Below, piece after piece: positions 2,399 through 22,885 of a stretch of DNA of 51,756 bases. The notes below the pieces were generated by a model. That model saw only the letters and a program-made list of their open reading frames with translations. It did no database searches and was not told the origin of the DNA. A program made the translations under genes and the position numbers. Origin of the DNA: Lachnospiraceae bacterium (GTDB lineage Bacteria; Bacillota; Clostridia; Lachnospirales; Lachnospiraceae); assembly GCA_017511045.1 (NCBI GenBank), contig JAFWLM010000077.1:1-51756 (forward strand). The letters are read 5' to 3'. Each line of letters begins with the position of its first letter. Position 1 is the first letter of the stretch.

Positions 2399-3904
2399 CT
2401 ATTCTCCCGCATGTGAGATTCCTAAGATCTCAAGCTCTTTTTCCGTAAGACCGACGCCTCTTAACATCAGTCTGTTTCCCCGCAGCGCTTCAATGGAGTT
2501 GATACCCATTCCGCCCATCATCTCCTTGATCTCATGCTTCCATGCAGTAAGGAGATTGATCAGGCGCCGGCTTCCGATATCCGGGTTCAGACGTTTCACC
2601 AGTTCCGGCCTCTGCGTCGCAATGCCCCAGTTGCACTTTCCTGTCTGGCAGGTCCTGCAAAGATGACATCCCAGTGCAAGCAATGCTCCGGTTGCGATAT
2701 AGCAGGCATCTGCCCCAAGCGCGATCGCCTTTACAATATCTGCTGCAGAACGGATGCTTCCTCCGACAACTAAGGAAACATTGTTCCTGATCCGTTCATC
2801 ACGAAGTCTCTGGTCAACGGCCGCAAGCGCAAGCTCGATCGGGATTCCGACATTGTCACGGATCCTGGTCGGTGCCGCTCCTGTACCTCCGCGGATTCCA
2901 TCAATGGCAATGATGTCAGCTCCGCTCCTTGCGATACCGCTTGCAATGGCTGCGATATTGTGGACGGCCGCAACTTTTACGATGACCGGTTTCTTATATT
3001 CGGTTGCCTCTTTCAGGGAATAGACCAGCTGTCTTAAGTCTTCAATTGAATAGATATCATGGTGCGGAGCCGGTGAGATCGCATCGCTTCCTTCCGGGAT
3101 CATTCGTGTTCTCGATACATCTCCGACGATCTTGGAGCCAGGCAGATGACCTCCGATGCCAGGCTTTGCGCCCTGTCCGATCTTAATCTCGATCGCAGCT
3201 CCTGCTGCCAGATACTCTTCATGGACACCGAATCTTCCGGACGCCACCTGAACGATCGTGTTCGGACCGTACTGATAAAAGTCCTCATGCAGACCGCCCT
3301 CACCGGTGTTATAGTATGTGCCCATCTCTGTAGCGGCTCTTGCAAGCGAAGCATGTGCGTTATAGCTGATCGAGCCGTAACTCATCGCAGAAAACATGAC
3401 CGGAAGATCCAGCTCCAACTGCGGCGGAACCTTGCAGATCAGATTTCCACTCTCATCTCTTTCCGGTTTTACATTTTTCTTTCCGAGGAATACACGGGTC
3501 TCCATCGGCTCTCTTAACGGGTCGATGGAAGGGTTCGTAACCTGCGATGCATTGATCAGCATCCGGTCCCAGTAAACAGGAAGCTCTTTCGGATTTCCCA
3601 TGGAAGATAGCAGCACGCCGCCACTGTTTGCCTGTTTATAGATCTCTCTGATCCCGTCATTCTGCCAGTTTGCATTTTCCCGAAGCTTACAATCGCTCTT
3701 TACGATCTTGAGCGCTCTTGTCGGACAGAGGGAAACGCAGCGCTGACAGTTCACACACTTGCTTTCATCACTGACCATTTTGTCCAGACGCTCGTTATAG
3801 GCATGAACCTCATTCGCGCACTGCCTCTCGCAGACCCGGCAGGTAATGCAGCGGTCCATATTTCGTACTACTTCAAATTCAGGATATAAAAAATCGATAC
3901 TCAT
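2399..3904 (-). CDS. Glutamate synthase FMN (synthase) subunit with N-terminal ferredoxin domain
   Basis: 501-aa synthase domain of the archaeal-type split glutamate synthase, which reductively aminates 2-oxoglutarate with ammonia channelled from the amidotransferase subunit. Residues 1-65 hold two [4Fe-4S] motifs (CITCRVCERQC and CVNCQRCVSLCP). The rest is the FMN-binding TIM barrel with family hallmarks EGGLHEDFYQYG, KIGQGAKPGIGGHLPG and IDGIRGGTGAAPT. The Cys group GCHLCRTCQTGKCNWG near residue 418 is the place of the [3Fe-4S] cluster in the family. It overlaps the upstream amidotransferase gene by 4 nt (ATGA), a sign of translational coupling. Total length and order fit this family well. 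Confidence 0.93.
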   Translation of the reverse strand: MSIDFLYPEFEVVRNMDRCITCRVCERQCANEVHAYNERLDKMVSDESKCVNCQRCVSLCPTRALKIVKSDCKLRENANWQNDGIREIYKQANSGGVLLSSMGNPKELPVYWDRMLINASQVTNPSIDPLREPMETRVFLGKKNVKPERDESGNLICKVPPQLELDLPVMFSAMSYGSISYNAHASLARAATEMGTYYNTGEGGLHEDFYQYGPNTIVQVASGRFGVHEEYLAAGAAIEIKIGQGAKPGIGGHLPGSKIVGDVSRTRMIPEGSDAISPAPHHDIYSIEDLRQLVYSLKEATEYKKPVIVKVAAVHNIAAIASGIARSGADIIAIDGIRGGTGAAPTRIRDNVGIPIELALAAVDQRLRDERIRNNVSLVVGGSIRSAADIVKAIALGADACYIATGALLALGCHLCRTCQTGKCNWGIATQRPELVKRLNPDIGSRRLINLLTAWKHEIKEMMGGMGINSIEALRGNRLMLRGVGLTEKELEILGISHAGE

Positions 3905-4998
3905 ATCTGGACACCTTCTTTCAGTCTGACCACTACCGGCTCTCCTCCGCTCGGAGCCCAGATGTTTTCAGCATCCGGTTCCATCGTGCGGATCGCAGCT
4001 TCCTCGCTGGCAATAAAGACCTTGTCATCCTTCTCGCCAACGACCATGCTTCTGAGCTTCAGCCGGTCGTTTAATGCCATCAGTCCGCCGTTGAATCCCA
4101 TAACGATTGAAAACGGTCCTGTGATCAAAAGGCTCGGATAAAGCGTCCTGAGATAGATATGCTTCTCTTTATCATTCAGATCCGTTTTCCGGTCGATCGT
4201 GCTCCAGAACGGTGCCGCGATCACACTGGCAGCTTCTTCCAGTGTCAGATGCTGCACACGGATCAGATAATCAAGGATATAAGTGATAACTTCTGTATCT
4301 GTCTGAAGATTGCATTTATAGCCAAACATTTCGATATATCGGCGGTTCGCATCATAAGAAGAGATCTCACCGTTATGAACAATGGAAAAATCAAGCAGAG
4401 TAAAAGGATGTGCTCCGCCCCACCAGCCCGGTGTGTTGGTCGGATATCTTCCATGCGCGGTCCAGGAGTATCCTTCATATTCTTCTAAGCGGTAAAAAAT
4501 TCCGACATCTTCCGGAAAGCCGACGGCCTTAAATGTTCCCATATTCTTTCCACTGGAAAAAACATAGGCGCCGTTCATTTCCGTGTTGATCCTGGTCACA
4601 GCACGAACAACATATTCCTCTTCCTCAACCTGCATGGCAGCTACCTTGGACTGTAACGGTGCAACAAAGTACCTCCAAATGATCGGCTCGTCCGTGATCG
4701 CAGGAATCTTTCTGGTCGGAATGACCTCAGCATGAACGACCTCAAACCGTTCTTTCAAGAATGCTTCACAGTCTTTTCTGGTCGCTCTTTCATCAAAGAA
4801 CATATGAAGCGCATAGAATTCTTTGTAGTCCGGATAGATTCCATAACCTGCAAAGCCGCCGCCCAGGCCATTTGAGCGGTCATGCATCGGACGCATTGCT
4901 TCTGCGACCAGTCCTCCGGAAATCTTCTTTCCTTCTGTGGAGATCACAGCTGCGATCGCGCAGCCGGATGGAATTCGGACCTGTCCTTCTTTTTTCAT
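3901..4998 (-). CDS. Glutamate synthase glutamine amidotransferase subunit (class II, Ntn hydrolase)
   Basis: Class II glutamine amidotransferase that releases ammonia from glutamine for the synthase subunit. I place the start at 4998 (MKKEGQVRIPSGC), giving 365 aa. The longer open frame back to 5112 translates straight through the leader terminator at 5026-5087 and is unlikely to be protein. The catalytic Cys is then residue 12 (IPSGCAIAAVIS), so a short propeptide must be removed to expose it, as in other glutamate synthases. Further landmarks are HDRSNGLGGGFAGYG, WTAHGRYPTNTPGWWGGAHPF and SIVHNGEISSYDANRRYIE. It is the first gene of the glt operon and overlaps the next gene by 4 nt. Its leader suggests control by antitermination. 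Confidence 0.92.
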   Translation of the reverse strand: MKKEGQVRIPSGCAIAAVISTEGKKISGGLVAEAMRPMHDRSNGLGGGFAGYGIYPDYKEFYALHMFFDERATRKDCEAFLKERFEVVHAEVIPTRKIPAITDEPIIWRYFVAPLQSKVAAMQVEEEEYVVRAVTRINTEMNGAYVFSSGKNMGTFKAVGFPEDVGIFYRLEEYEGYSWTAHGRYPTNTPGWWGGAHPFTLLDFSIVHNGEISSYDANRRYIEMFGYKCNLQTDTEVITYILDYLIRVQHLTLEEAASVIAAPFWSTIDRKTDLNDKEKHIYLRTLYPSLLITGPFSIVMGFNGGLMALNDRLKLRSMVVGEKDDKVFIASEEAAIRTMEPDAENIWAPSGGEPVVVRLKEGVQI

Positions 4999-5025
4999 CT
5001 TAGATTCCCCTTTGCCGTTTTGAAA

Positions 5026-5093
5026 ATAAAAAAAGCAAAGGCATTCATCCCGCCACAGTTTTCCTGTAACGAAATGAACGCCTTTGCTCATTT
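5026..5093 (-). promoter_or_regulatory. glt leader: tandem hairpins overlapping an intrinsic terminator (candidate ANTAR target)
   Basis: Read leftward. P1 spans 5093-5072 with an 8-bp stem (innermost TGAGC/GTTCA) and hexaloop AAAGGC (A at 1, G at 4). P2 follows without a gap at 5071-5051, an 8-bp stem CGTTACAG/CTGTGGCG with loop GAAAA. The terminator pairs 5087-5074 with 5048-5035 (GCAAAGGC arm against GCCTTTGC) and is followed by a U-rich run at 5034-5026. The terminator's left arm contains the P1 loop and right stem, so P1 and the terminator exclude each other. The operon start codon lies 28 nt beyond. Base pairs are seen in sequence; ANTAR binding is inferred. Confidence 0.75.
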
Positions 5094-5099
5094 GTAGAA

Positions 5100-5129
5100 A
5101 TTCTAAACCCATCTCTCATTTTGTGTCAA
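5100..5129 (-). promoter_or_regulatory. Sigma-A-type promoter of the glt operon
   Basis: Reading leftward, a perfect -35 box TTGACA (5129-5124) and a -10 box TAGAAT (5105-5100) are separated by 18 nt (17 nt if TTAGAA is used). The predicted transcript start near 5093 coincides with the first base of the P1 hairpin, so almost no RNA precedes the regulatory element. Confidence 0.75.
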
Positions 5130-5235
5130 GACGAATTCGCTCATCATTTTTCACAACAAACTTTTTCGCATTTTTTCTCTTTTCGTTCTTTTCCACAAAA
5201 AGAATCTTTCGCCGAAAAAAATTACGAGGAATTTC

Positions 5236-5264
5236 TTGACAGTCAAAAAAACTTGCTGTAAGAT
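5236..5264 (+). promoter_or_regulatory. Sigma-A-type promoter of amt-glnK
   Basis: TTGACA at 5236-5241, a 17-nt spacer, then TAAGAT at 5259-5264. The predicted start near 5271 is only about 4 nt before the P1 hairpin of the leader. The 250-nt gap between glt and amt holds this promoter, the divergent glt promoter and both leaders; between the two promoters I see only A/T-rich sequence. Confidence 0.75.
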
Positions 5265-5274
5265 TCCGCATCAT

Positions 5275-5320
5275 AGAGGCAAGGGCGTCTTTGGAAAATT
5301 CCAAAGGCGCCTTTCTTTAT
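5275..5320 (+). promoter_or_regulatory. amt leader: hexaloop hairpin overlapping terminator (candidate ANTAR target)
   Basis: P1 at 5275-5292 is AGAGGC / loop AAGGGC / GTCTTT, a 6-bp stem including two G-U pairs, with A at loop position 1 and G at 4. The terminator pairs 5284-5296 with 5299-5311 (13 bp, one wobble) followed by TTTCTTTAT. Its upper part can also be read as P2, stem TTTGG/CCAAA with a six-base loop AAAATT. P1 and the terminator share 5284-5292, so they are alternatives. The amt ribosome site (AGGAGG) follows about 38 nt later. Confidence 0.75.
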
Positions 5321-5363
5321 GCCCAAATAATGGGACAGCATTTGTTAAGGAGGCGAAATTACT

Positions 5364-7124
5364 ATGTCTGCAGAAATTACGACACTCGTTTCAGATCTTG
5401 TGGGAAGCGAAGTTTTCGGCGTCTGGTTTTTGATCGGTGCCGCTCTGGTATTCTGGATGCAGGCCGGCTTTGCCATGGTGGAGGCCGGTTTCACAAGAGC
5501 TAAGAACACAGGAAATATCATCATGAAAAACCTGATGGATTTCTGTATCGGAACCGTTGTCTTTATCCTGATCGGCTTTGGCCTTTTGATGGGAGAAGAC
5601 CTGGTGGGTTTTATCGGAAAGCCGGGATTTGATCTGTTCACCGCTTATGCAAACTTTGATTTTTCAAGTTTTGTCTTTAACCTGGTCTTCTGCGCAACGA
5701 CCGCAACGATCGTATCCGGAGCTATGGCAGAAAGGACCAAGTTCCTCTCCTACTGTGTTTATTCCGCAGTGATCTCCGCTCTGATCTATCCGATCGAAGC
5801 GCACTGGATCTGGGGAGGTGGCTGGCTCTCAAATCTTGGATTCCATGACTTTGCAGGTTCCTGTGCGATCCATATGGTCGGCGGTGTCTCTGCTCTGATC
5901 GGCGCAAAGATCTTAGGACCCCGTATTGGTAAATTCAAAAAAGACCCCGGTGGAAAGATCATTAAAGTTAACGCATTTCCCGGTCACAATATCGCACTTG
6001 GTGCGCTGGGTGTCTTTATTCTCTGGCTTGGCTGGTATGGCTTCAACGGTGCTGCCGCTACATCGATCGATCAGTTAGGTTCCATCTTCCTGACGACCAC
6101 GGTCTCTCCTGCAGTTGCGACTGTCGCATGCATGATCTTTACCTGGCTGAAATACGGGAAGCCCGATGTTTCCATGTGTCTCAACGCCTCGCTTGCGGGC
6201 CTTGTTGCAATCACCGCAGGCTGTGACGTGACAGATGCCTTAGGCGCAGCCATCATCGGATTGATCTCAGGACTTCTGGTCGTATTCGGTGTCTGGCTCT
6301 TAGATCACAAGCTGCATATCGACGATCCGGTCGGTGCAGTTGCTGTGCACTGTCTCAACGGTATCTGGGGAACGATCGCGGTCGGACTGTTTGCAACGAC
6401 TTCCGCCCCGGGCTATTCCATCGCCGATTCTTCCGGAACTGTCATCTGCGGACTCTTCTATGGCGGAGGCTTTAAACTTCTGGGGCTGCAGCTTCTGGGT
6501 TTTGCCTCTGTTGCCTGCTGGACAGCCGTTTTCATTACTGTGGCTTTCCTGGTGATCAAGAAGATCTTTGGACTTCGCGTTACGAGGGAGGAAGAGACGC
6601 TTGGGCTTGACAACACAGAACATGGTCTTCCATCCGCTTATGCGGGATTTTCCATGACTCCGGAATATGTCGAAGAAGGCGCACCGGTCCCGGTCCTTGT
6701 TTCCGGTGACATTCCTGTGGCAGAAGCGATCCCGGTCAAAAAGGTTCCGACCTTCGAAGAAGGGGTTCCGAAATTCACCAAGGTTGAGATCATCTGCAAA
6801 GAATCCCGTCTGGAATCTCTGAAAGAGGCAATGATGAATATCGGCATCACCGGCATGACCGTCTCCCATGTCTTAGGTTTCGGACTCCAGAAAGGAACTC
6901 CGGAATACTATCGTGGTGTTCAGGTAGAAAGCAATCTCCTTCCGAAAGTACAGGTCGATATCGTTGTCAGCAAAGTCCCTGTGCGCAGCGTTATTGAAAC
7001 TGCAAAACAGGTCCTTTATACAGGCCACATCGGTGACGGAAAAATCTTTGTTTATGACGTTGAAAATGTCGTAAAAGTCCGTACAGGCGAAGAAGGCTAT
7101 GACGCTCTGCAGGATGTAGAGTAA
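5364..7124 (+). CDS. amt: Ammonium transporter fused to a P-II signalling domain (Amt-GlnK)
   Basis: 586-aa fusion. Residues 1 to about 415 form an Amt/Mep/Rh ammonium channel with eleven or so hydrophobic helices and family motifs GFAMVEAGFTRAKNTGNI, IYPIEAHWIWGGGWL, HMVGGVSALIGA, and DDPVGAVAVHCLNGIWGTIA. After a linker rich in Val, Pro and Glu, residues about 470-575 form a P-II (GlnB/GlnK) domain. It begins FTKVEIICKESRLESLKEA and holds a T-loop with GLQKGTPEYYRGVQV, then LLPKVQVDIVV and TGHIGDGKIFVYDV, which are ATP/2-oxoglutarate binding signatures. Fusing the gate-keeper to its channel makes the transporter sense nitrogen status directly. It is monocistronic, with its own antitermination-type leader and a terminator at 7164-7214. 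Confidence 0.95.
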   Translation: MSAEITTLVSDLVGSEVFGVWFLIGAALVFWMQAGFAMVEAGFTRAKNTGNIIMKNLMDFCIGTVVFILIGFGLLMGEDLVGFIGKPGFDLFTAYANFDFSSFVFNLVFCATTATIVSGAMAERTKFLSYCVYSAVISALIYPIEAHWIWGGGWLSNLGFHDFAGSCAIHMVGGVSALIGAKILGPRIGKFKKDPGGKIIKVNAFPGHNIALGALGVFILWLGWYGFNGAAATSIDQLGSIFLTTTVSPAVATVACMIFTWLKYGKPDVSMCLNASLAGLVAITAGCDVTDALGAAIIGLISGLLVVFGVWLLDHKLHIDDPVGAVAVHCLNGIWGTIAVGLFATTSAPGYSIADSSGTVICGLFYGGGFKLLGLQLLGFASVACWTAVFITVAFLVIKKIFGLRVTREEETLGLDNTEHGLPSAYAGFSMTPEYVEEGAPVPVLVSGDIPVAEAIPVKKVPTFEEGVPKFTKVEIICKESRLESLKEAMMNIGITGMTVSHVLGFGLQKGTPEYYRGVQVESNLLPKVQVDIVVSKVPVRSVIETAKQVLYTGHIGDGKIFVYDVENVVKVRTGEEGYDALQDVE

Positions 7125-7163
7125 GAAAGAAGACAACGGCTTTTCTGCATGTGCCGTGTCTAT

Positions 7164-7214
7164 AAAAAAAGGGAGCAGCGTACACAAAACCCCTTTGCTG
7201 GCTGCTCCTTTTTT
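7164..7214. terminator. Bidirectional intrinsic terminator between amt and dapL
   Basis: Stem GGAGCAGC (7172-7179) pairs with GCTGCTCC (7201-7208), flanked by an A7 run on the left and a T-rich run on the right. It can serve both the rightward amt and the leftward dapF-dapL transcripts. The loop is long (21 nt). Confidence 0.75.
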
Positions 7215-7227
7215 AATATTCTTTTTC

Positions 7228-8415
7228 TTATTTCATCAGCAGTTGTTTCATTCTTTCCGCTGCAGTTTTTGTATCCTCCGGATCGCCGAACGTGGAAAAA
7301 CGGAAGTAGCCTTCCCCGCAGGCTCCAAATCCCTCTCCCGGAGTTCCCACGATCTGGACCTCATTTAAAAGATGATCAAAGAATTCCCAGCTTCCGAACC
7401 CCTCAGGGCATTTCATCCAGATGTATGGTGCATTCTTTCCGCCGCAGTACCAGATCCCGCAGGCATCCAGGGCTTCCATCAGGACTTTTGCATTGTTCTT
7501 GTAGATCTGAATGTTTGCATGGATCTGCTTCTGACCTTCTTCCGTAAAAACAGCTGCCCCTGCTTTCTGCAGGATATAGGAGACACCATTCGTCCGCGTC
7601 GTCCGGTTCCGTACCCACATGTCATTCAGCTTCATTCCGGCTCTTTCCAGTTCTTTCGGAATCACGGTATAGCCCATGCGTGTCCCGGTAAATCCGGCGG
7701 TCTTTGAAAGAGAACAGATCTCGATCGCACAGGTCCTTGCTCCTTCAATCTCAAAGATGCTGTGAGGAAGTTCCGGATCTTCGATAAACGCCTCATACGC
7801 TGCATCAAACAGGATCACCGCCCCTCTGCGGTTTGCAAAGTCCACCCATTCCTTCAGCTGCTCTTTTGAAAAAACGGCTCCCGTCGGATTGTTTGGAGAA
7901 CAGATATAAAGAAGATCTGCTTCCATGCCCTCATCCGGAACCGGAAGGAAACCATTTTCTTTTCCCGACGGAAGGTGAACGACTTTTCTTCCTGTCATGA
8001 CATTGGCATCCACATAAGCCGGATATGCCGGCTCAATGACAAGGGAAGAATTAGAAACGTCAAAGAGATCCAGAATGTCTCCCAGCTCATCACTGGCACC
8101 GCTGGATACAAAGACTTCCTCCGGATCCAGGGATATGCCTCTTCTTCCGTAATACTCCGCAATCGTCCTCCTAAGTTCCGGATCACCACACTCCGGCATA
8201 TAACCATGAAAGCTCTCCTGTTTTGCCTGATCATCCACCGCGCCGTAAAGTTCCCGGATCACTGCTCCGCACAAAGGCAGGGAAACATCTCCGATCCCCA
8301 TGCGATATAAATGGGTTCGGGGATGTGCATCAACATACGCTTTTGTTTTCTGCGCGATATTATAGAACAGATAAGAATCTTTCAATTCTGCATAATGGGT
8401 ATTTGGTTTTAACAT
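7228..8415 (-). CDS. dapL: LL-diaminopimelate aminotransferase
   Basis: 395-aa PLP-dependent class I/II aminotransferase that converts tetrahydrodipicolinate and glutamate directly to LL-2,6-diaminopimelate, bypassing the succinylase or acetylase steps. N-terminal YLFYNIAQKTKAYVDAHP and MGIGDVSLPL are characteristic of DapL. ICSPNNPTGAV carries the Asn that contacts PLP, and EICSLSKTAGFTGTRMGYT contains the PLP lysine (SLSK). It lies 51 nt downstream of dapF in a two-gene operon, and both act on LL-diaminopimelate in lysine and peptidoglycan synthesis. Because it consumes glutamate, its placement behind a nitrogen-type leader is sensible. Confidence 0.93.
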   Translation of the reverse strand: MLKPNTHYAELKDSYLFYNIAQKTKAYVDAHPRTHLYRMGIGDVSLPLCGAVIRELYGAVDDQAKQESFHGYMPECGDPELRRTIAEYYGRRGISLDPEEVFVSSGASDELGDILDLFDVSNSSLVIEPAYPAYVDANVMTGRKVVHLPSGKENGFLPVPDEGMEADLLYICSPNNPTGAVFSKEQLKEWVDFANRRGAVILFDAAYEAFIEDPELPHSIFEIEGARTCAIEICSLSKTAGFTGTRMGYTVIPKELERAGMKLNDMWVRNRTTRTNGVSYILQKAGAAVFTEEGQKQIHANIQIYKNNAKVLMEALDACGIWYCGGKNAPYIWMKCPEGFGSWEFFDHLLNEVQIVGTPGEGFGACGEGYFRFSTFGDPEDTKTAAERMKQLLMK

Positions 8416-8466
8416 AGTTCCTCTCTTTCAAATCTTTCGTTTCTGTCTCAGTTCCGCTTTTATAAA

Positions 8467-9309
8467 TTACTGTTCCGGCTCCTTTGTTCTTACCGGGTAC
8501 TCTGCGTCATAGACAAATTCCGCCGGACCCGTCATTTCAATACTTCCGTCTTTTTCGACGCAGATCGATAAAACGCCGCCATCCAGATGCACGGCAATCG
8601 GCGTATTGTATTCACAGAAGCCTTTCCGGACAGCTGCCGCAGCGCTGGCGCAGGCTCCGGTCCCGCAGGCCATTGTGATTCCGCTTCCCCGCTCCCAGAC
8701 GCGCATACGCAGCTCATTTGCTTTTATCTGCTGTACAAACTCTGCATTCACTCCGCCCGGAAAGGCTTCATAGTGCTCGACTGCCGGGCCGATCTCAGAT
8801 AATGGAACTGCCTCCGCATCCTGAACAAAAAAGACCGCATGTGGATTTCCAACAGAGACCGGTGTGCAGATCACATCTTCAAAGATGAAATTGTCATGCT
8901 TATATTCTCCGGACAGCGCAGTAAGCACCAGGTCGTTAGAAGCGACTGTAACACCCATGTCCACTGTCACTTCTTTGACTTTGTTATACTCCACCTTTAA
9001 TTTCAGCTGCTTGATCCCGGAGAGTGTTTCGATCTCCAGCTCTGTTTTATTTGTATAGCCTTTTTCATAAACATACTTTCCGACACAGCGGATCCCGTTT
9101 CCGCACATCATCGCTTCGCTTCCGTCTGCATTAAAGATGCGCATCTTAAAGTCCGCCGTTTCCGATGGACTGATGTAGATCATGCCGTCGGAACCTGCTC
9201 CGAAATGCCGGTCAGATAGTTTTACAGAGAGTTCCCGGATATCTTCCGGGACTTCTCCAAAGACATAAAGATAGTCATTACCAAGTCCATGCATCTTTGT
9301 GAATTTCAT
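8467..9309 (-). CDS. dapF: Diaminopimelate epimerase
   Basis: 280-aa PLP-independent epimerase converting LL- to meso-diaminopimelate. Start chosen at 9309 (MKFTKMHGLGNDY) because AGGAGG lies 8 nt upstream; the longer open frame back to 9360 only reads the leader hairpin. The two catalytic Cys are in MMCGNGIRCVGKY (about residue 71-83) and GSGITMACGTGACA (about 213-226), matching the DapF active-site pair. Other landmarks are GNPHAVFFV and the N-terminal HGLGNDY. First gene of dapF-dapL, with its own promoter and a tandem-hairpin leader. Confidence 0.95.
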   Translation of the reverse strand: MKFTKMHGLGNDYLYVFGEVPEDIRELSVKLSDRHFGAGSDGMIYISPSETADFKMRIFNADGSEAMMCGNGIRCVGKYVYEKGYTNKTELEIETLSGIKQLKLKVEYNKVKEVTVDMGVTVASNDLVLTALSGEYKHDNFIFEDVICTPVSVGNPHAVFFVQDAEAVPLSEIGPAVEHYEAFPGGVNAEFVQQIKANELRMRVWERGSGITMACGTGACASAAAAVRKGFCEYNTPIAVHLDGGVLSICVEKDGSIEMTGPAEFVYDAEYPVRTKEPEQ

Positions 9310-9325
9310 TACGACCGCCTCCTGT

Positions 9326-9376
9326 AAATAAAAGAGGCGTCCTTGAACACGAGTGTTCAAAGACGCCTTTGCCTCT
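9326..9376 (-). promoter_or_regulatory. dapF leader: tandem hexaloop hairpins overlapping a terminator (candidate ANTAR target)
   Basis: Read leftward. P1 at 9376-9359 is AGAGGC / AAAGGC / GTCTTT (6-bp stem, loop A1 and G4). P2 at 9360-9343 is TTGAAC / ACTCGT / GTTCAA (6-bp stem, six-base loop starting with A but C at position 4). The terminator joins 9368-9362 to 9341-9335 with P2 as its tip and is followed by a U-rich run at 9334-9326. The right arm of P1 is also the left arm of the terminator. Confidence 0.75.
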
Positions 9377-9385
9377 AACGCGATT

Positions 9386-9414
9386 ACTTTATCACTTTAC
9401 ATTGACAAAATCAA
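9386..9414 (-). promoter_or_regulatory. Candidate promoter of dapF-dapL
   Basis: Reading leftward, TTGATT (9414-9409), 17-nt spacer, TAAAGT (9391-9386). Each box matches the consensus at four of six positions. The predicted start near 9379 again lies just before the P1 hairpin. Its -35 region interleaves with that of the divergent purA promoter. Confidence 0.55.
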
Positions 9415-9430
9415 GAAATGGTCTGATAAT
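9402..9430 (+). promoter_or_regulatory. Sigma-A-type promoter of purA
   Basis: TTGACA at 9402-9407, 17-nt spacer, GATAAT at 9425-9430. The predicted transcript start near 9437 is about 4 nt before the leader hairpin. Confidence 0.75.
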
Positions 9431-9440
9431 ACATCTCGTG

Positions 9441-9483
9441 AAGGCAATGGGGTCCAAGGAAAAATGGAACTGTTGCCTTTTAC
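9441..9483 (+). promoter_or_regulatory. purA leader: degenerate copy of the hexaloop/terminator element
   Basis: The same layout as the other nitrogen-type leaders but weaker. Loop AATGGG (9446-9451; A1 and G4 kept) sits on only three pairs (GGC/GTC). A larger hairpin pairs 9441-9448 with 9472-9479, with an inner TCCA/TGGA helix, and is followed by TTTTA. The two structures share bases and exclude each other. AGGAGG and the purA ATG follow about 15-25 nt later. Membership of the group rests on position, loop and the overlap rather than on stem strength. Confidence 0.55.
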
Positions 9484-9507
9484 ACTTGAATTACAGGAGG
9501 AAAAAAC

Positions 9508-10785
9508 ATGTCTTGCTGCGCAATCGTTGGAATCAACTGGGGAGATGAAGGAAAAGGCCGCATGGTCGATCTGCTGACGGAAGAATACGATATCGTCGTC
9601 CGTTATCAGGGCGGCGGAAACGCCGGACATACGATCGTAAATGAATACGGAAAATTTGCTCTGCATCTTCTTCCTTCCGGTATCTTTCGGAAAGGAGTCG
9701 TGAGTGTCATCGGAAACGGTGTTGCCTTAGACCCTGAAAATCTTTGGAAAGAAATTGAAGAAGTCCGATCCCGCGGGATCGAGATCACGCCGGAGAACTT
9801 AAAGATCAGTGACCGTGCTTCCGTTCTGCTCCCGTGGCACAGAGACTTGGACAGCCTGGAAGAGGCACGTCTCGCCGATAAAAAATACGGATCCACCAAG
9901 CAGGGCATTGCTCCTTTCTATTCTGATAAATATCAAAAGAAAACCATTATGGTCGGCGAACTGTTTTATCCGGAGTACGTCAGAGAACATTTAGCCGGCA
10001 TCACGGAATGGAAGAACCTGATCCTGGACAAAGTCTACGGAGCAAAACAGTACACAGAGAAAGAACTGCTCGACTGGGTCGACGAATATGCGGATAAATT
10101 AAAACCATTCGTCTGCAGCACAAAAGAGTTTTTGGAAGGTGCCGTCAAAGAAGGAAAGAATATTTTATTTGAGGCACAGCTCGGCGCTTTAAGAGACCTG
10201 GACTACGGCATCTATCCTTATACGACTTCCTCCAATGCGATCGCAGCGTTTGCACCGGTCGGAAGCGGACTCTCCTCTGCAAAACTTGATCAAGTCATCG
10301 GCGTAGTAAAAGCCTATTCCACCTGCGTCGGCGAAGGACCTTTCGTCTGCGAATGGTTTGGCGAAGAAGCAGACAAGCTGCGCGAAGCAGGTCATGAATT
10401 CGGAGCAAAGACAGGAAGAGCGCGCCGCGTCGGTCCGTTAGATATCGTTGCAACAAGATACGGGGTGGATGTTCAGGGCGCAACGGATCTTGCGCTGACG
10501 AAAATGGATATCTTGAGCTACATGGAAAAAATTCCGGTATGCACCAAATATATCATTGACGGCGAAGAAACGGATCTCTTCCCATTCCCTGCGCTGCTTG
10601 GAAAAGCACAGCCGAAGATCGAATATCTGGATGGATGGAACTGTGATATCTCAGGTGTCCGCAAATGGGAAGATCTTCCGGAGAACGCGCGGAAATACGT
10701 GGAATATATTGAGCAGGCAGTCGGCTGCCATATTACTTATGTATCAGTAGGAGCAGAACGGGATGCTTATATTTATCGAAGCTGA
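9508..10785 (+). CDS. purA: Adenylosuccinate synthetase
   Basis: 425-aa cytosolic GTP-dependent ligase joining IMP and aspartate to form adenylosuccinate, the first step from IMP to AMP. The N-terminal P-loop-like GINWGDEGKGRMVDLL, the active-site GGGNAGHTIV, and GLSSAKLDQVIGVVKAYSTCVGEGPF are diagnostic; so is KTGRARRVGPLDIVATRYG. Length is normal for the family (about 425-430). The ATG at 9508 is preceded by GGAGG at 7-8 nt. It is transcribed alone or with pyrG: no terminator separates purA from the pyrG promoter other than the pyrG leader terminator itself. Confidence 0.96.
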   Translation: MSCCAIVGINWGDEGKGRMVDLLTEEYDIVVRYQGGGNAGHTIVNEYGKFALHLLPSGIFRKGVVSVIGNGVALDPENLWKEIEEVRSRGIEITPENLKISDRASVLLPWHRDLDSLEEARLADKKYGSTKQGIAPFYSDKYQKKTIMVGELFYPEYVREHLAGITEWKNLILDKVYGAKQYTEKELLDWVDEYADKLKPFVCSTKEFLEGAVKEGKNILFEAQLGALRDLDYGIYPYTTSSNAIAAFAPVGSGLSSAKLDQVIGVVKAYSTCVGEGPFVCEWFGEEADKLREAGHEFGAKTGRARRVGPLDIVATRYGVDVQGATDLALTKMDILSYMEKIPVCTKYIIDGEETDLFPFPALLGKAQPKIEYLDGWNCDISGVRKWEDLPENARKYVEYIEQAVGCHITYVSVGAERDAYIYRS

Positions 10786-10804
10786 ATACAAAAGAACGAA
10801 GCTG

Positions 10805-10833
10805 TTGACGGATAAAAAATCCGGGGGTAAAAT
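10805..10833 (+). promoter_or_regulatory. Sigma-A-type promoter of pyrG
   Basis: TTGACG at 10805-10810, 17-nt spacer, TAAAAT at 10828-10833. The start is predicted near 10840, about 5 nt before the P1 hairpin, the same geometry as glt, amt, dapF and purA. Confidence 0.7.
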
Positions 10834-10844
10834 AACTCTTTGTT

Positions 10845-10889
10845 AAGGCAAAGGGGTCTTTGAACACTCGTGTTCAAGACCCCTTTTTT
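10845..10889 (+). promoter_or_regulatory. pyrG leader: tandem hexaloop hairpins overlapping a strong terminator (candidate ANTAR target)
   Basis: P1 at 10845-10860 is AAGGC / AAAGGG / GTCTT, a 5-bp stem with loop A1 and G4. P2 at 10860-10877 is TTGAAC / ACTCGT / GTTCAA, identical in stem and loop to the dapF P2. The terminator pairs GGGGTCTT (10853-10860) with AAGACCCC (10876-10883), with P2 as its tip, and ends in T6 (10884-10889). P1 and the terminator share 10853-10860. Confidence 0.78.
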
Positions 10890-12671
<1,782 letters not shown>

Positions 12672-14618: not shown

Positions 14619-15827
14619 ATGAAATTTTCCAGCCAAGAAGTCATTCAGTATGTGCAGGAAGAGGATGTGAAATTTATCCGCCTCGCTTTCTGTGACGTGT
14701 TCGGAAAGCAAAAGAATATTTCGATCATGCCGGAGGAGCTTCCGAGAGCATTTGATACCGGTATCGCGATTGACGGATCTGCAATCAAGGGATTCGGTGA
14801 TGAAACTCATTCCGATCTTCTTCTGCATCCGGATCCGGAGACATTGATGCTGCTTCCGTGGAGGCCGGAGCACGGACGTGTCGTTTTAATGTACACGACA
14901 GTCACCTGGCCGGATGGTACGCCGTTTGCACAGGATACCCGGACTCTGCTTAAGAATGCAATCGCGGAAGCAAAAGCAGCCGGCTATCAGTTTTCCTTTG
15001 GCGCAGAACTGGAATTCTATCTGTTCCTTTTAGATGAAAACGGAGAACGTACGGATAAACCTTATGACACGGCCGCATATATGGACATTGCGCCGGAAGA
15101 TAAAGGAGAAAATGTGCGTCGTGAGATCTGCCTGACGCTTGAGCAGATGAACATTTTCCCGGAAAGTTCTCATCACGAAGAAGGTCCGGGACAGAACGAG
15201 ATCGACTTCCGTTTTTCCGAAACATTGAATGCCGCCGACAATGCGCAGACCTTCCAGAATGTCGTAAAGACGATTGCAAGAAGGTATGGCCTGTATGCGG
15301 ACTTTTCCGCGAAACCGTTAAAAGACGGCCCCGGCAACGGCTATCACATCAATATTTCCGTGAACAATAATGAATCCCCGGAGGATTTCAATTATATGAT
15401 CGCCGGTATTCTGAAACATGTGCACGATATGACGCCGTTCCTGAATCCGACAAAAAATTCCTATGACCGTTTCGGAAGCAATAAGGCTCCGAAATATATT
15501 TCCTGGTCTCATGAAAACCGCTCACAGCTGATCAGGATCCCTGCAGCCACCGGCCAGTACACGAGATGCGAACTGCGTTCACCGGATCCGTCTGCAAATC
15601 CTTATCTGGCATATACGCTTATGATTTACGCGGCTTTGGACGGGATCATAAACAAACTTCCGCTTCCGGAAGCTGCCGATTTCAATTTATTCAAGGCAGA
15701 CATGCAGACCCTGGAGCAGTTCAAGACCCTGCCGTTAAGTTATGGCGAAGCTTGTGAGGCCGCAAAATCCAGTGAATTTATCAAAGCACATATCCCTGCA
15801 TCGATTTTAGATATTTATTGTAAATAG
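14619..15827 (+). CDS. glnA: Glutamine synthetase, type I (short form)
   Basis: 402-aa glutamine synthetase (glutamate + ammonia + ATP to glutamine), about 40 residues shorter than the B. subtilis enzyme. Beta-grasp N-domain with FIRLAFCDVFGKQKNISI and IDGSAIKGFG. Catalytic barrel with FGAELEFYLF (metal ligands), HHEEGPGQNEIDF, GNGYHINIS and NRSQLIRIPAATGQYTRCELR (NRS...IR signature). The C-terminus is shortened, and the adenylylation loop of the beta form (NLYDLP) is absent. It lies 40 nt before an ANTAR regulator gene, an arrangement known from clostridia. No promoter of its own is obvious; it is probably transcribed from the glmS promoter. Confidence 0.95.
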   Translation: MKFSSQEVIQYVQEEDVKFIRLAFCDVFGKQKNISIMPEELPRAFDTGIAIDGSAIKGFGDETHSDLLLHPDPETLMLLPWRPEHGRVVLMYTTVTWPDGTPFAQDTRTLLKNAIAEAKAAGYQFSFGAELEFYLFLLDENGERTDKPYDTAAYMDIAPEDKGENVRREICLTLEQMNIFPESSHHEEGPGQNEIDFRFSETLNAADNAQTFQNVVKTIARRYGLYADFSAKPLKDGPGNGYHINISVNNNESPEDFNYMIAGILKHVHDMTPFLNPTKNSYDRFGSNKAPKYISWSHENRSQLIRIPAATGQYTRCELRSPDPSANPYLAYTLMIYAALDGIINKLPLPEAADFNLFKADMQTLEQFKTLPLSYGEACEAAKSSEFIKAHIPASILDIYCK

Positions 15828-15867
15828 CAGGTTTCCCTGAATATTCAGAAGAAAGGAGGTAATGAAG

Positions 15868-16461
15868 ATGAACTTTGAGCAGGATGTCTCAAGCGTCCTT
15901 TTAGTCTCCTCTTCAGAAAAATTAACCTCCTCTCTTACCAGCCTTTTGCCCGGTTCTGCTTATTTTCCTGTCCACAAAGTTAAAAACATCAGTGCCGCAG
16001 AGCGAATGCTTGCTGAACGCGACTATGATTATGTTATAATAAGTTCACCGCTTCCGGATGATGCCGGAATCGAGTTTGCAATGGACACAGGAAGAGATAC
16101 CTTAAGCCTTGTACTGTTTCTGGTGGCAACAGAACTGTATGAAGAGATCTATGAAAAAGTATCTCCCGCCGGAGTCTTTACAATTGCGAAGCCTGTGACC
16201 AGACAGACCTTTGAGCTGGCACTCAAGTGGCTTGCAGTTGTGAAATCCCGCAGCAGAAAAGTTCAGAAGAAAACGCTTTCCCTGGAAGAAAAAATGGCGG
16301 AGATCCGCATTGTGAACCGCGCAAAGCTTCTTCTGATCAGTGAAGAAAAAATGAATGAGGATAGTGCTCACCGCTATATTGAAAAACAGGCAATGGATCA
16401 TTGCAGGTCAAAAAAGGAAATAGCGGAAAGCATTATCTCCCGTTATACAGAAAAAAACTAA
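15868..16461 (+). CDS. ANTAR-domain RNA-binding antiterminator with pseudo-receiver domain
   Basis: 197-aa response-regulator-like protein. Residues 1-120 are a receiver fold: beta-1 VLLVSSSEK has SS where the acidic pair should be, DYVIISSPLPDDAG has Ser where the phospho-acceptor Asp belongs, and GVFTIAKPV keeps the conserved Lys. After a helical linker, residues about 135-195 form an ANTAR domain (EIRIVNRAKLLLISEEKM, then AHRYIEKQAMDHC and KKEIAESIIS). ANTAR domains bind paired hexaloop RNA hairpins and prevent terminator formation. Start at 15868 is chosen because GGAGG (15855-15859) lies 8 nt upstream; the ATG at 15862 is too close. It sits between glnA and carA, like NitR of clostridia, and the five leaders at 5026-10889 are its likely targets. 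Loss of the Asp argues against phosphorylation control. Confidence 0.9.
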   Translation: MNFEQDVSSVLLVSSSEKLTSSLTSLLPGSAYFPVHKVKNISAAERMLAERDYDYVIISSPLPDDAGIEFAMDTGRDTLSLVLFLVATELYEEIYEKVSPAGVFTIAKPVTRQTFELALKWLAVVKSRSRKVQKKTLSLEEKMAEIRIVNRAKLLLISEEKMNEDSAHRYIEKQAMDHCRSKKEIAESIISRYTEKN

Positions 16462-20844: not shown

Positions 20845-20895
20845 CGCATGATACGATAATGCTGTTGCTACTCCCAATCTGGCAACGGAGAGGGG

Positions 20896-20994
20896 GTGAT
20901 TTACATAGACAGCTTTATTTCATTCTTAATCTCATTCGCAGCAGGTATAATCTCATATTGTATCTGCAAGTGGCTGGATCGAGATTCAAAGTAG
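20896..20994 (+). CDS. Small (32-aa) single-pass membrane peptide, uncharacterised, type I toxin-like
   Basis: GTG-initiated 32-codon frame (starts VIYIDSFISFLISFAAG, ends KWLDRDSK) preceded by GGAG at about 5 nt and followed at once by an intrinsic terminator, so it looks like a complete stand-alone gene. The peptide has one hydrophobic helix (about residues 7-24, with two Cys) and a short charged C-terminal tail. I recall similar tiny proteins ending in a CKWLD-type motif, often repeated in Firmicute genomes and of unknown function; I cannot verify this here. Size, one membrane helix and charged tail resemble type I toxins, but no antisense RNA promoter was identified. It fills most of the 376-nt gap between carB and the trpB-like gene. 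Confidence 0.6.
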   Translation: MIYIDSFISFLISFAAGIISYCICKWLDRDSK

Positions 20995-21010
20995 CAATCA
21001 GCACATAATC

Positions 21011-21044
21011 AAAAAACCACGAGGTAGCAGCTCGTGGTTTTTTT
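21011..21044. terminator. Intrinsic terminator after the small membrane-peptide gene
   Basis: Stem CCACGAG / CTCGTGG with loop GTAGCAG, flanked by A6 and T7, so it can work in both directions (the leftward trpB-like gene ends at 21127). Confidence 0.85.
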
Positions 21045-21126: not shown

Positions 21127-22500
21127 TTATTCTGCGACCTGCGGAAGTCCTGCGAAACCTTTTTCGAGTTCTTCGTCCGTCGGGATGTAGTCTGTCATCT
21201 CGCCGTCGTTGTACTGCTGATATCCTTTCAGGTCGAAGTATCCAGTTCCGGTCAGACCGAAGACGATCGTCTTTTCTTCGCCTGTTTCTTTGCACTTCAG
21301 TGCCTCGTCGATCGCTGCCTTAATCGCATGTGAGCTTTCCGGTGCCGGAAGTGTTCCTTCGCATCTTGCAAACATTTCAGCTGCTGCGAAGACATCACTC
21401 TGTTTTGCGGAAACAGCTCTCATATAGCCGTCATGATACAGCTGGGAGAGGATCGTACTCATGCCGTGGAAACGAAGTCCGCCTGCATGGTTTGCGGAAG
21501 GAATGAATCCGCTTCCCAAAGTATACATCTTTGCGAGCGGGCAGATCATACCGGTGTCACAGAAGTCATATGCAAACTTTCCTCTTGTAAAACTTGGGCA
21601 GGATGCCGGCTCAACAGCAATGATATCGTAGTCTGCTACTCCGCGAAGCTTTTCTCCCATGAACGGAGCAATGAGTCCGCCGAGGTTGGATCCGCCGCCG
21701 GCACATCCGATGATGGTGTCTGCTTTGATTCCGTATTTATCTAAAGCCGCCTTGGTCTCAAGACCGATGATGCTCTGATGAAGAAGGACCTGATTCAATA
21801 CGCTTCCGAGAACATATCTGTATCCTTCATTCTTAACAGCAACTTCAACAGCCTCTGAGATCGCGCATCCCAAAGAACCTGTTGTTCCAGGGAACTGCTC
21901 TAAGATCTTGCGGCCGACTTCCGTTGTGTCGGAAGGTGATGCTGTAACATCAGCGCCGTAGACTCTCATGACTTCGCGGCGGAACGGCTTCTGCTCATAG
22001 CTGATCTTAACCATGTAAACTTTGCAGTCCAGATCAAAATATGCACATGCCATGGAAAGCGCGGTTCCCCACTGGCCTGCTCCGGTCTCTGTTGTTACAC
22101 CTTTCAGGCCCTGCATCTTTGCGTAATATGCCTGAGCGATCGCGGAATTCAGCTTGTGGCTGCCGGAAGTATTGTTGCCTTCAAACTTGTAATAGATCTT
22201 TGCCGGTGTTCCCAGCGCTTCCTCCAGGAAGTATGCTCTTACCAGCGGAGCCGGACGATACATCTTGTAGAACTTGATGATCTCTTCCGGGATTGGGAAA
22301 TATGCCGTGTCGTTGTCCAGTTCCTGTTTGCACAGTTCCTCGCAGAAGATCGGTGATAGTTCTTCCAGCGAAAGCGGCTGTCCGGTTCCCGGATTCAGCA
22401 GCGGTGCTGGTTTGTTCTTCATGTCAGAACGAATGTTATACCAACTTGTTGGGATCTCACTCTCTTCCAGGTAGATTTTGTAAGGGATTTCTTTACTCAT
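21127..22500 (-). CDS. Tryptophan synthase beta-like protein (TrpB2 type)
   Basis: 457-aa PLP enzyme of the TrpB2 class, longer than ordinary TrpB (about 400 aa) and with the TrpB2-style N-terminus (YLEESEIPTSWYNI). The PLP lysine is in GNNTSGSHKLNSA. ETGAGQWGTALS and the phosphate-binding GCAGGGSNLGG are conserved, and LGCAISEAVE is typical of the class. Start at 22500 (MSKEIPYKIY) is chosen over 22509 because AAAGG is then well spaced. TrpB2 makes tryptophan from indole and serine and is usually not bound to TrpA; no other trp gene is in the window. It may salvage indole. The Trp-specific T-box upstream strongly supports a role in tryptophan supply. Confidence 0.92.
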   Translation of the reverse strand: MSKEIPYKIYLEESEIPTSWYNIRSDMKNKPAPLLNPGTGQPLSLEELSPIFCEELCKQELDNDTAYFPIPEEIIKFYKMYRPAPLVRAYFLEEALGTPAKIYYKFEGNNTSGSHKLNSAIAQAYYAKMQGLKGVTTETGAGQWGTALSMACAYFDLDCKVYMVKISYEQKPFRREVMRVYGADVTASPSDTTEVGRKILEQFPGTTGSLGCAISEAVEVAVKNEGYRYVLGSVLNQVLLHQSIIGLETKAALDKYGIKADTIIGCAGGGSNLGGLIAPFMGEKLRGVADYDIIAVEPASCPSFTRGKFAYDFCDTGMICPLAKMYTLGSGFIPSANHAGGLRFHGMSTILSQLYHDGYMRAVSAKQSDVFAAAEMFARCEGTLPAPESSHAIKAAIDEALKCKETGEEKTIVFGLTGTGYFDLKGYQQYNDGEMTDYIPTDEELEKGFAGLPQVAE

Positions 22501-22540
22501 ATTGCACATCCTTTCTTTTTTGGGGATCAGGAAATTTCTG

Positions 22541-22593: not shown

Positions 22594-22885
22594 CAAAAAA
22601 ATCCTGTCCCACAGTAAATTACTACTGCTGGGACAGGAGAATATACTTTTCACCTGCGGTGCCACCCAACTTGATGCATTGCTGCATCCACTCTGCGTAT
22701 GCCATCACATACCGGATTTGTTTACGAAGCTCCCACTCCGTCTCACATACTCCAGGACTTCCATCCTGTTTCAGCTCGCCCTCTGGAGTCCATTCGGTTT
22801 TTCATTTCCACCACGCTTCCACCATCCGCGGCTCTCTATCGGTAAAGAGGAAAAACTTACTTACTCTCCATCAACGGTTTAATTG
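22594..22885 (-). promoter_or_regulatory. T-box riboswitch, tryptophan (TGG) specifier
   Basis: Read leftward from about 22885. Stem I has base helices GGAG/CTCC and GTTTTTC/GAAAAAC around a specifier loop. The 5' side holds AGTAAGTAA and the 3' side CGAATGGA, placing the codon TGG at 22792-22790 followed by the usual purine. The conserved T-box TGGCACCGCAG (22664-22654) forms the antiterminator bulge that pairs with an uncharged tRNA acceptor end. The terminator pairs 22638-22629 (TCCTGTCCCA arm) with 22611-22602, extended by CAGTA/TACTG, and ends in a U-run at 22600-22594. Uncharged tRNA-Trp should therefore turn on trpB2. This fills most of the 557-nt gap between trpB2 and aroF. Confidence 0.92.

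Follow-up and report, generated by a model that had tools for sequence, protein, structure and literature searches.

Single-hexaloop leader elements suggest an ANTAR antitermination regulon of nitrogen metabolism in a Lachnospiraceae bacterium

Introduction

The RNA targets of the ANTAR proteins EutV, NasR and AmiR are the closest described relatives of a leader element that we analyse here, found before nitrogen-related genes in a contig of a Lachnospiraceae bacterium (assembly GCA_017511045.1, contig JAFWLM010000077.1, forward strand). The whole contig, of 51,756 nucleotides (nt), is called the window below; its assembly spans 2.04 Mb and is 81% complete. Ramesh et al. 2012 (PMC3369931) defined ANTAR targets as dual hairpins, both of them needed, and reported matches before ammonium transporters, P-II and the synthases of glutamate and of glutamine; that ANTAR proteins control nitrogen genes is therefore already known. 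The main text of that paper does not mention purA, pyrG or dapF. Walshe et al. 2022 (PMC8934654) later redefined the minimal binding unit as one hexaloop, with two still necessary for antitermination. Known targets share the loop bases A1 and G4 and a terminal C:G pair (PMC3369931, PMC7496416). For NasR, systematic evolution of ligands by exponential enrichment yielded C:G closing, A1 and G4, and a single hairpin binds at ca. 12 μM (PMC7496416), while an actinobacterial survey describes dual stem loops as required (PMC8164766). A search of the open-access literature, with subscription papers outside its scope, retrieved no report of terminator-coupled single-hexaloop targets.

Here we propose that the leader element and an ANTAR protein encoded in the same window are likely to form an antitermination regulon of nitrogen metabolism, in which each target would carry a single hexaloop at the 5' end of its transcript.

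Results

Hexaloop hairpins and terminators in five leaders

In each of the leaders of glt, amt, dapF, purA and pyrG, a hexaloop hairpin shares sequence with the left arm of an intrinsic terminator. The loop has A1 and G4 in all five, and starts at 5085 (-) in glt, 5281 (+) in amt, 9370 (-) in dapF, 9446 (+) in purA and 10850 (+) in pyrG. The terminator fold is the more stable one in every leader (-17.9 to -42.0 vs. -2.7 to -17.8 kcal/mol with the hexaloop enforced), which suggests that the terminator is the default and that the hairpin needs help to form. An earlier reading of the window made from its letters alone (the sequence-only reading) had described the two structures as mutually exclusive in these leaders, and all five arrangements are present, that of purA with a weak stem. 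The elements are as follows, with loops in square brackets; R1 is a covariance model of promoter and hairpin built from 35 seed sequences, all five window leaders among them.

5100..5129, minus strand: glt promoter TTGACA-18-TAGAAT; 9 nt from the end of the -10 box to the 5-bp stem
5072..5093, minus strand: glt hexaloop hairpin AAATGAGC[AAAGGC]GTTCATTT, inner stem TGAGC[AAAGGC]GTTCA, 8 bp in total; R1 match 5072-5129(-), E = 2.2e-7
5028..5093, minus strand: glt terminator (hairpin plus U-run), which excludes the hexaloop; minimum free energy -42.0 kcal/mol, or -17.8 when the hexaloop is enforced
5236..5264, plus strand: amt promoter TTGACA-17-TAAGAT; 11 nt to the stem
5274..5293, plus strand: amt hexaloop hairpin TAGAGGC[AAGGGC]GTCTTTG, 7 bp; R1 E = 5.7e-7
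5280..5318, plus strand: amt terminator, from folding (ends approximate)
9386..9414, minus strand: dapF promoter TTGATT-17-TAAAGT; 10 nt to the stem
9357..9378, minus strand: dapF hexaloop hairpin TTAGAGGC[AAAGGC]GTCTTTGA, inner stem GAGGC[AAAGGC]GTCTT, 8 bp; R1 E = 1.1e-5
9328..9368, minus strand: dapF terminator, from folding (ends approximate)
9402..9430, plus strand: purA promoter TTGACA-17-GATAAT; 10 nt to the 5-base stem position
9443..9454, plus strand: purA weak hexaloop hairpin GGC[AATGGG]GTC, 3 bp; R1 E = 1.6e-5
9440..9481, plus strand: purA terminator, from folding energies (ends approximate)
10805..10833, plus strand: pyrG promoter TTGACG-17-TAAAAT; 11 nt to the stem
10845..10860, plus strand: pyrG hexaloop hairpin AAGGC[AAAGGG]GTCTT, 5 bp; R1 E = 1.4e-7
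10850..10888, plus strand: pyrG terminator, from folding (ends approximate)

The pattern RRGCAANGGSGTYY matches six times in the 2.04 Mb assembly, and a control with the reversed pattern five times, so the count alone is uninformative. Five of the six matches are the five leaders, within 5.8 kb, the pattern having been derived from these same five.

One hairpin at the predicted 5' end

A sigma-A-type promoter, with a spacing of 17 or 18 bp, precedes the hairpin in all five leaders. Taking +1 as the seventh base downstream of the -10 box, which ends 9-11 nt before the stem, the RNA is predicted to start ca. 3-5 nt before the 5-base stem, leaving no space for an upstream P1 hairpin. We extended this to 54 strict elements, from the window and from loci fetched by ANTAR or Amt similarity; a promoter was not required, and one match inside a gene (L018) had been removed beforehand. 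A clear promoter is present in 42 of the 54, and 37 of these have 8-13 nt from the end of the -10 box to the stem; seven other elements are the second unit of a tandem, and five have no clear promoter. An upstream AxxGxx hexaloop (at least 4 bp, within 25 nt) was found in just one of the 54, as compared with 0-5 for other letter pairs. This single candidate belongs to the dapF leader of the window and begins 15 nt before the predicted start.

These data bear on the possibility that the elements are classical dual-hexaloop ANTAR targets in which P1 is degenerate or lies further upstream. The verified EutV, NasR and AmiR targets are described as dual (PMC3369931, PMC8934654), and the dapF candidate would agree with such an arrangement, although it falls outside the predicted transcript. 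The sensitivity of our dual-site scan is also not established: as a positive control it flagged only two of the 30 best eutP loci, one convincingly (L176). Of nine eutP loci that neighbour an ANTAR gene, three (L189, L194 and L200) have hexaloop pairs, none of them with a terminator; L176, added as a tenth, has a hexaloop pair with a terminator, which indicates that the scan can detect a dual site. Given the one upstream hexaloop in 54 and the position of the promoters, we rejected the dual arrangement as quite unlikely. The sequence-only reading had equated the leaders with tandem hexaloops, the established ANTAR target; this does not hold, since we found one hexaloop per leader, at the predicted start, and no P1 and P2 joined by a short linker.

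The seven tandems (L012, L013, L016, L019, L022, L033 and L035) consist of two complete hexaloop and terminator elements, 63-144 nt apart. The gene downstream of those in L013, L022 and L033 is weakly similar to glnA, and is perhaps a type III glutamine synthetase (GSIII) gene.

Stem covariation and loop conservation

The stems vary and stay paired, as had been suggested from the five leaders. We compared 89 distinct hairpins, entering only those with at least four inner pairs (114 of 119 R1 matches), against 500 shuffles. Changes on both sides of the stem occupy 163 cells vs. 74.5 in the shuffles, and the covariation score is 0.554 vs. 0.285 (maximum of 0.208 in slid versions); none of the 500 shuffles reaches either value. 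Counting from the loop, the third pair is A-U in 43 hairpins and G-C in 41, the fifth is A-U in 46 and U-A in 35, and the closing pair is C-G in all 89.

R1 matches lean to the model, so we used as an independent check 35 sites combining a promoter, a hexaloop of any letters and a terminator, in loci that had been retrieved through similarity to ANTAR or Amt and not via R1, the window being excluded. A1 and G4 are present in 31 of them, and three of the other four are register shifts of the same elements, as judged by letters. A loop-size control (93 counts for size 6; 11, 32, 3, 7, 68 and 12 for sizes 3, 4, 5, 7, 8 and 9, respectively) was not used, since one and the same hairpin may be scored at both size 4 and size 8, which confounds the counts.

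Distribution and target genes

The five genes of the window, and the gene following dapF, are these.

3901..4998, minus strand: glt, amidotransferase domain protein (PF00310 on the open reading frame 3901-5112; start assigned by eye)
5364..7124, plus strand: amt, ammonium transporter fused to P-II (PF00909, PF00543)
7228..8415, minus strand: dapL, LL-diaminopimelate aminotransferase, next gene after dapF (TIGR03542)
8467..9309, minus strand: dapF (TIGR00652)
9508..10785, plus strand: purA (profile matches)
11079..12671, plus strand: pyrG (PF06418)

The glt gene is the first of a glt-like cluster, named by eye. The nitrogen theme that the sequence-only reading saw in the five genes stands, except that dapF itself moves no nitrogen; the product of the next gene, dapL, takes its amino group from glutamate.

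R1 finds seven sites in the genome itself (E from 1.4e-7 to 1.6e-4), two of them outside the seed and the window, before GSIII (contig C25) and asnA (C87). Matches occur in 10 of 14 genomes of the genus (E ≤ 0.1) and, in a scan of the class with strict filters, in 98 of 293 genomes (E ≤ 0.01). The regulon is thus not the local one that had been proposed. At E ≤ 1e-3 there were 120 matches including those of the genome itself, of which one at a contig end (G050:C57:20946) was omitted. Of the 119 inspected, 114, in 64 genomes, have a hairpin with A1 and G4, and a script detected the terminator in 94 of these 114; the five in which it found no proper hairpin are L113, L162, L166, L171 and the purA leader of the window.

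By best BLAST match, the next gene in the 119 is glt (30), GSIII (26), amt (8), gdhA (7), pyrG (6), PPDK-like, purC, glnA and asnB (4 each, one asnB labelled by eye), glmS and asnA (3 each), dapF and purA (2 each), and gatD-like, aspS and carA (1 each), with 13 not assigned; locus L114 holds two matches under one label, so the tally is probably five for pyrG and 27 for GSIII. Among the 13, we later named purB, nadE, a murT-like gene, an NADP-isocitrate dehydrogenase gene (icd), the gene for ATP synthase subunit a and a sodium/solute-symporter-like gene. The downstream genes are mostly ammonia, glutamine or aspartate genes. The covariance search that had been suggested as a check thus found the loops conserved in relatives, mostly before nitrogen genes, two downstream genes falling outside the theme.

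The sequence TTTGAACACTCGTGTTCAA, common to the dapF and pyrG terminators, could be taken as a sign of recent copying. However, the same genes are preceded in many genomes by the element with different stems, and we regard chance or recently copied terminators as scarcely credible. A leader that binds a metabolite, such as a glutamine riboswitch, or a nucleotide-sensing start site would fit the glutamine and ammonia metabolism common to the target genes; against this, conservation is limited to the promoter boxes and a hairpin of ca. 22 nt, leaving no space for an aptamer, and Rfam gave nothing at the gathering score on the elements, only sub-threshold microRNA matches. Such a leader appears very improbable.

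Several observations concern individual leaders. A Clostridiales-1 RNA (RF01699, 83.8 bits) lies between the pyrG attenuator and pyrG, at 10892-11052 (+) of the window; a faster Rfam scan of the whole window missed it, and a DNA search of the assembly gave no second copy. The pyrG leader is shorter in a sister genome (G013), with 102 vs. 229 nt from loop to start. The genome has a second amt gene (L048, contig C3), 73% identical and, by eye, apparently behind a co-directional gene, with no element found by eye or by scan in the 473 nt upstream.

Four of the R1 matches with no assigned gene precede a non-coding region, which we followed in family f17 (L155, L156, L168, L169 and L205-L215). The anti-Shine-Dalgarno-like 16-mer TACACTTTCTCCTTTA is found in 11 of the 38 genomes of this family, and in all 11 a promoter and hexaloop lie 101-113 nt upstream of it. 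The four copies inspected have the hexaloop, then the terminator and then, by eye, a region with no gene-like open reading frame. Its closing stem (e.g. GGCCGTTTG/CAAACGGCC) encloses the 16-mer; one copy with its own end hairpin has a fold z of -7.8, and no Rfam family matched the region. We consider it a candidate nitrogen-regulated small RNA.

The ANTAR protein and its co-occurrence with the element

The window also encodes an ANTAR protein, in the gene order glmS-glnA-ANTAR-carA-carB.

14619..15827, plus strand: glnA, glutamine synthetase, immediately before the ANTAR gene (profile matches)
15862..16461, plus strand: ANTAR protein of 199 amino acids, pseudo-receiver and ANTAR domain (PF03861, 1.9e-14; receiver domain below cut-off)

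This is the single ANTAR gene detected in the assembly. In 27 of 30 fetched homologous loci glnA directly precedes the ANTAR gene, and in two of the three exceptions the contig starts at that point. We aligned the protein with 25 of the 30 homologues. None of the 26 receivers has the acidic pair or the phospho-acceptor Asp; the first acidic position is Ser in all of them, and that of the phospho-Asp is Asn (23), His (2) or Ser (1). The protein thus has an AmiR-like pseudo-receiver joined to an ANTAR domain, and not the phosphorylatable receiver of an EutV-type response regulator; the missing phosphorylation residues suggest that it is probably controlled by a protein partner. At the positions corresponding to EutV K149, E160 and M172 (PMC8934654 numbering), the residues are retained in all 26, in an alignment to EutV that is weak (E = 0.059).

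Over the class, 156 of 293 genomes have an ANTAR gene. Among genomes with the element, it is present in 32 of 33 at E ≤ 1e-4, 53 of 57 at 1e-3 and 79 of 98 at 0.01, in counts uncorrected for shared ancestry. In the genus, ten of 14 genomes have elements and nine the gene, and three (G006, G009 and G011) have neither. The discordant genomes, G002 with the gene and no elements, and G010 and G013 with elements and no gene, are all at most 81% complete; the ANTAR copy of G001 was reported with one in-frame stop. Protein searches found no ANTAR homologue in G197, G090 or G166.

From this co-occurrence, the identity of loop and closing pair with known ANTAR targets and the lack of any other ANTAR gene in the 81% complete assembly, the ANTAR protein probably binds the element, as the sequence-only reading had anticipated. 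Alternatively, another RNA-binding protein could recognise the hairpin, or the hairpin might merely tune an unregulated terminator close to the start. Genome G050 (97% complete, 6% contaminated), the one exception among the 33 at E ≤ 1e-4, favours this option, with strong elements and no ANTAR homologue, also by protein search. Loop identity, the joint presence with ANTAR genes and the joint absence from G006, G009 and G011 argue against it, and we judge it unlikely.

Other features of the window

A T-box leader at 22626-22883 (-) scores 85 bits, slightly under the gathering score of 93, with a TrpB-like gene (21127-22509, named by eye) downstream. The region at ca. 20880-21040 (+) encodes a small hydrophobic peptide, MDSFISFLISFAAGIISYCICKWLDRDSK, and a terminator-like repeat comes after it; by eye, the peptide resembles small type I toxin-like peptides.

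Discussion

Judging from sequence comparisons, the single-hexaloop antiterminators form a real and conserved nitrogen regulon, which is very probably under ANTAR control. In the mechanism we propose, each target would be transcribed from a sigma-A-type promoter, and its RNA would begin a few bases upstream of one stem-loop, which has AANGRN as its loop and is closed by a C-G pair. By default, as anatomy and folding energy suggest, the nascent RNA would refold the loop and its 3' side into the intrinsic terminator and transcription would stop before the gene. The ANTAR protein would bind the single hexaloop as it emerges from the polymerase, blocking the terminator and permitting read-through. 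It would probably be switched by a protein partner, for which the neighbouring glutamine synthetase and the P-II domain of Amt are candidates. The outcome might be one switch over ammonia uptake, over glutamine synthetase (GS), glutamate synthase (GOGAT) and glutamate dehydrogenase (GDH), and over the main pathways that use glutamine, ammonia and aspartate. As to the direction of the response, glt, amt and GSIII suggest nitrogen limitation, and gdhA, purA and pyrG could point to nitrogen supply.

A number of points weigh against this interpretation. Published work finds both hairpins required for antitermination (PMC3369931, PMC8934654). The promoters and transcription starts are predictions, the purA hairpin has only 3 bp, and the A1/G4 hairpins used to train R1 partly build pairing and loop conservation into its matches. 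Two covariation measures out of the five fail to rise above the shuffles, namely the pairs with changes on both sides (6 vs. 5.4, reached in 225 of 500) and the further pair types (22 vs. 21.6, in 284 of 500), with similar values in a separate run (5 vs. 5.2 and 13 vs. 15.4, respectively); these are the measures least inflated by relatedness. The gene for ATP synthase subunit a and the symporter-like gene lie outside the nitrogen theme. Besides the co-occurrence counts being uncorrected for shared ancestry and the case of G050, 77 of the 156 genomes with an ANTAR gene have no element at E ≤ 0.01 under the strict filters of the scan. Finally, in the weak alignment to EutV, the residues matching several RNA contacts of EutV are altered in this subfamily: R142 to Ile, R168 to Glu and Y164 to His in all 26 proteins, and R175 to Cys in 20.

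More tentatively, the elements may amount to a widespread and global nitrogen switch of Clostridia, in which 5'-terminal single-hexaloop RNAs and one pseudo-receiver ANTAR protein, signalled by the adjacent glutamine synthetase, would control uptake, GS/GOGAT/GDH, the synthesis of Asn, purines, pyrimidines, amino sugars and NAD, and cell-wall amidation. In one family, its reach would extend to a structured small RNA that exposes an anti-Shine-Dalgarno stretch. Were this so, the published two-hairpin rule would be a special case. The genome searches in PMC3369931 and PMC8164766 demanded two hairpins and should miss a single-hexaloop class. If our interpretation is right, many Clostridia known mainly from metagenomes have in this ANTAR protein a candidate for the master regulator of their nitrogen assimilation, and ANTAR control would extend from nitrogen uptake to the main nitrogen-spending pathways. 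Likewise, the question of why EutV needs two hairpins would become directly testable, with nature using one here.

Comparison with known systems

NitR, an ANTAR protein encoded beside glnA in solventogenic Clostridium, is comparable in that it has been proposed to act on ammonia assimilation as an antiterminator. PMC4676874 mentions a nitR antiterminator. AmiR of Pseudomonas aeruginosa shares with our protein the combination of pseudo-receiver and ANTAR domain (PMC7496416) and a His at the position aligned with Tyr164 of EutV; it differs in being controlled by AmiC (PMC8934654), whereas the neighbour here is a glutamine synthetase.

Among RNA targets, those of EutV, NasR and AmiR (PMC3369931) resemble our elements in the A1/G4 hexaloop, the terminal C:G pair, the overlap with the 5' arm of a terminator, the nitrogen genes downstream and the presence of an ANTAR protein. 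The elements described here differ in that a lone hexaloop takes the place of the pair and lies where the transcript is predicted to begin. In some loci two complete units of hexaloop and terminator follow each other, and purine, pyrimidine, cell-wall, Asn and NAD genes also occur downstream. The predicted binding unit is exactly the one hexaloop defined by Walshe et al. 2022 (PMC8934654), who foresaw single-hexaloop sites. They expected such sites where a time limit on transcription is absent, whereas the single hexaloops found here overlap terminators.

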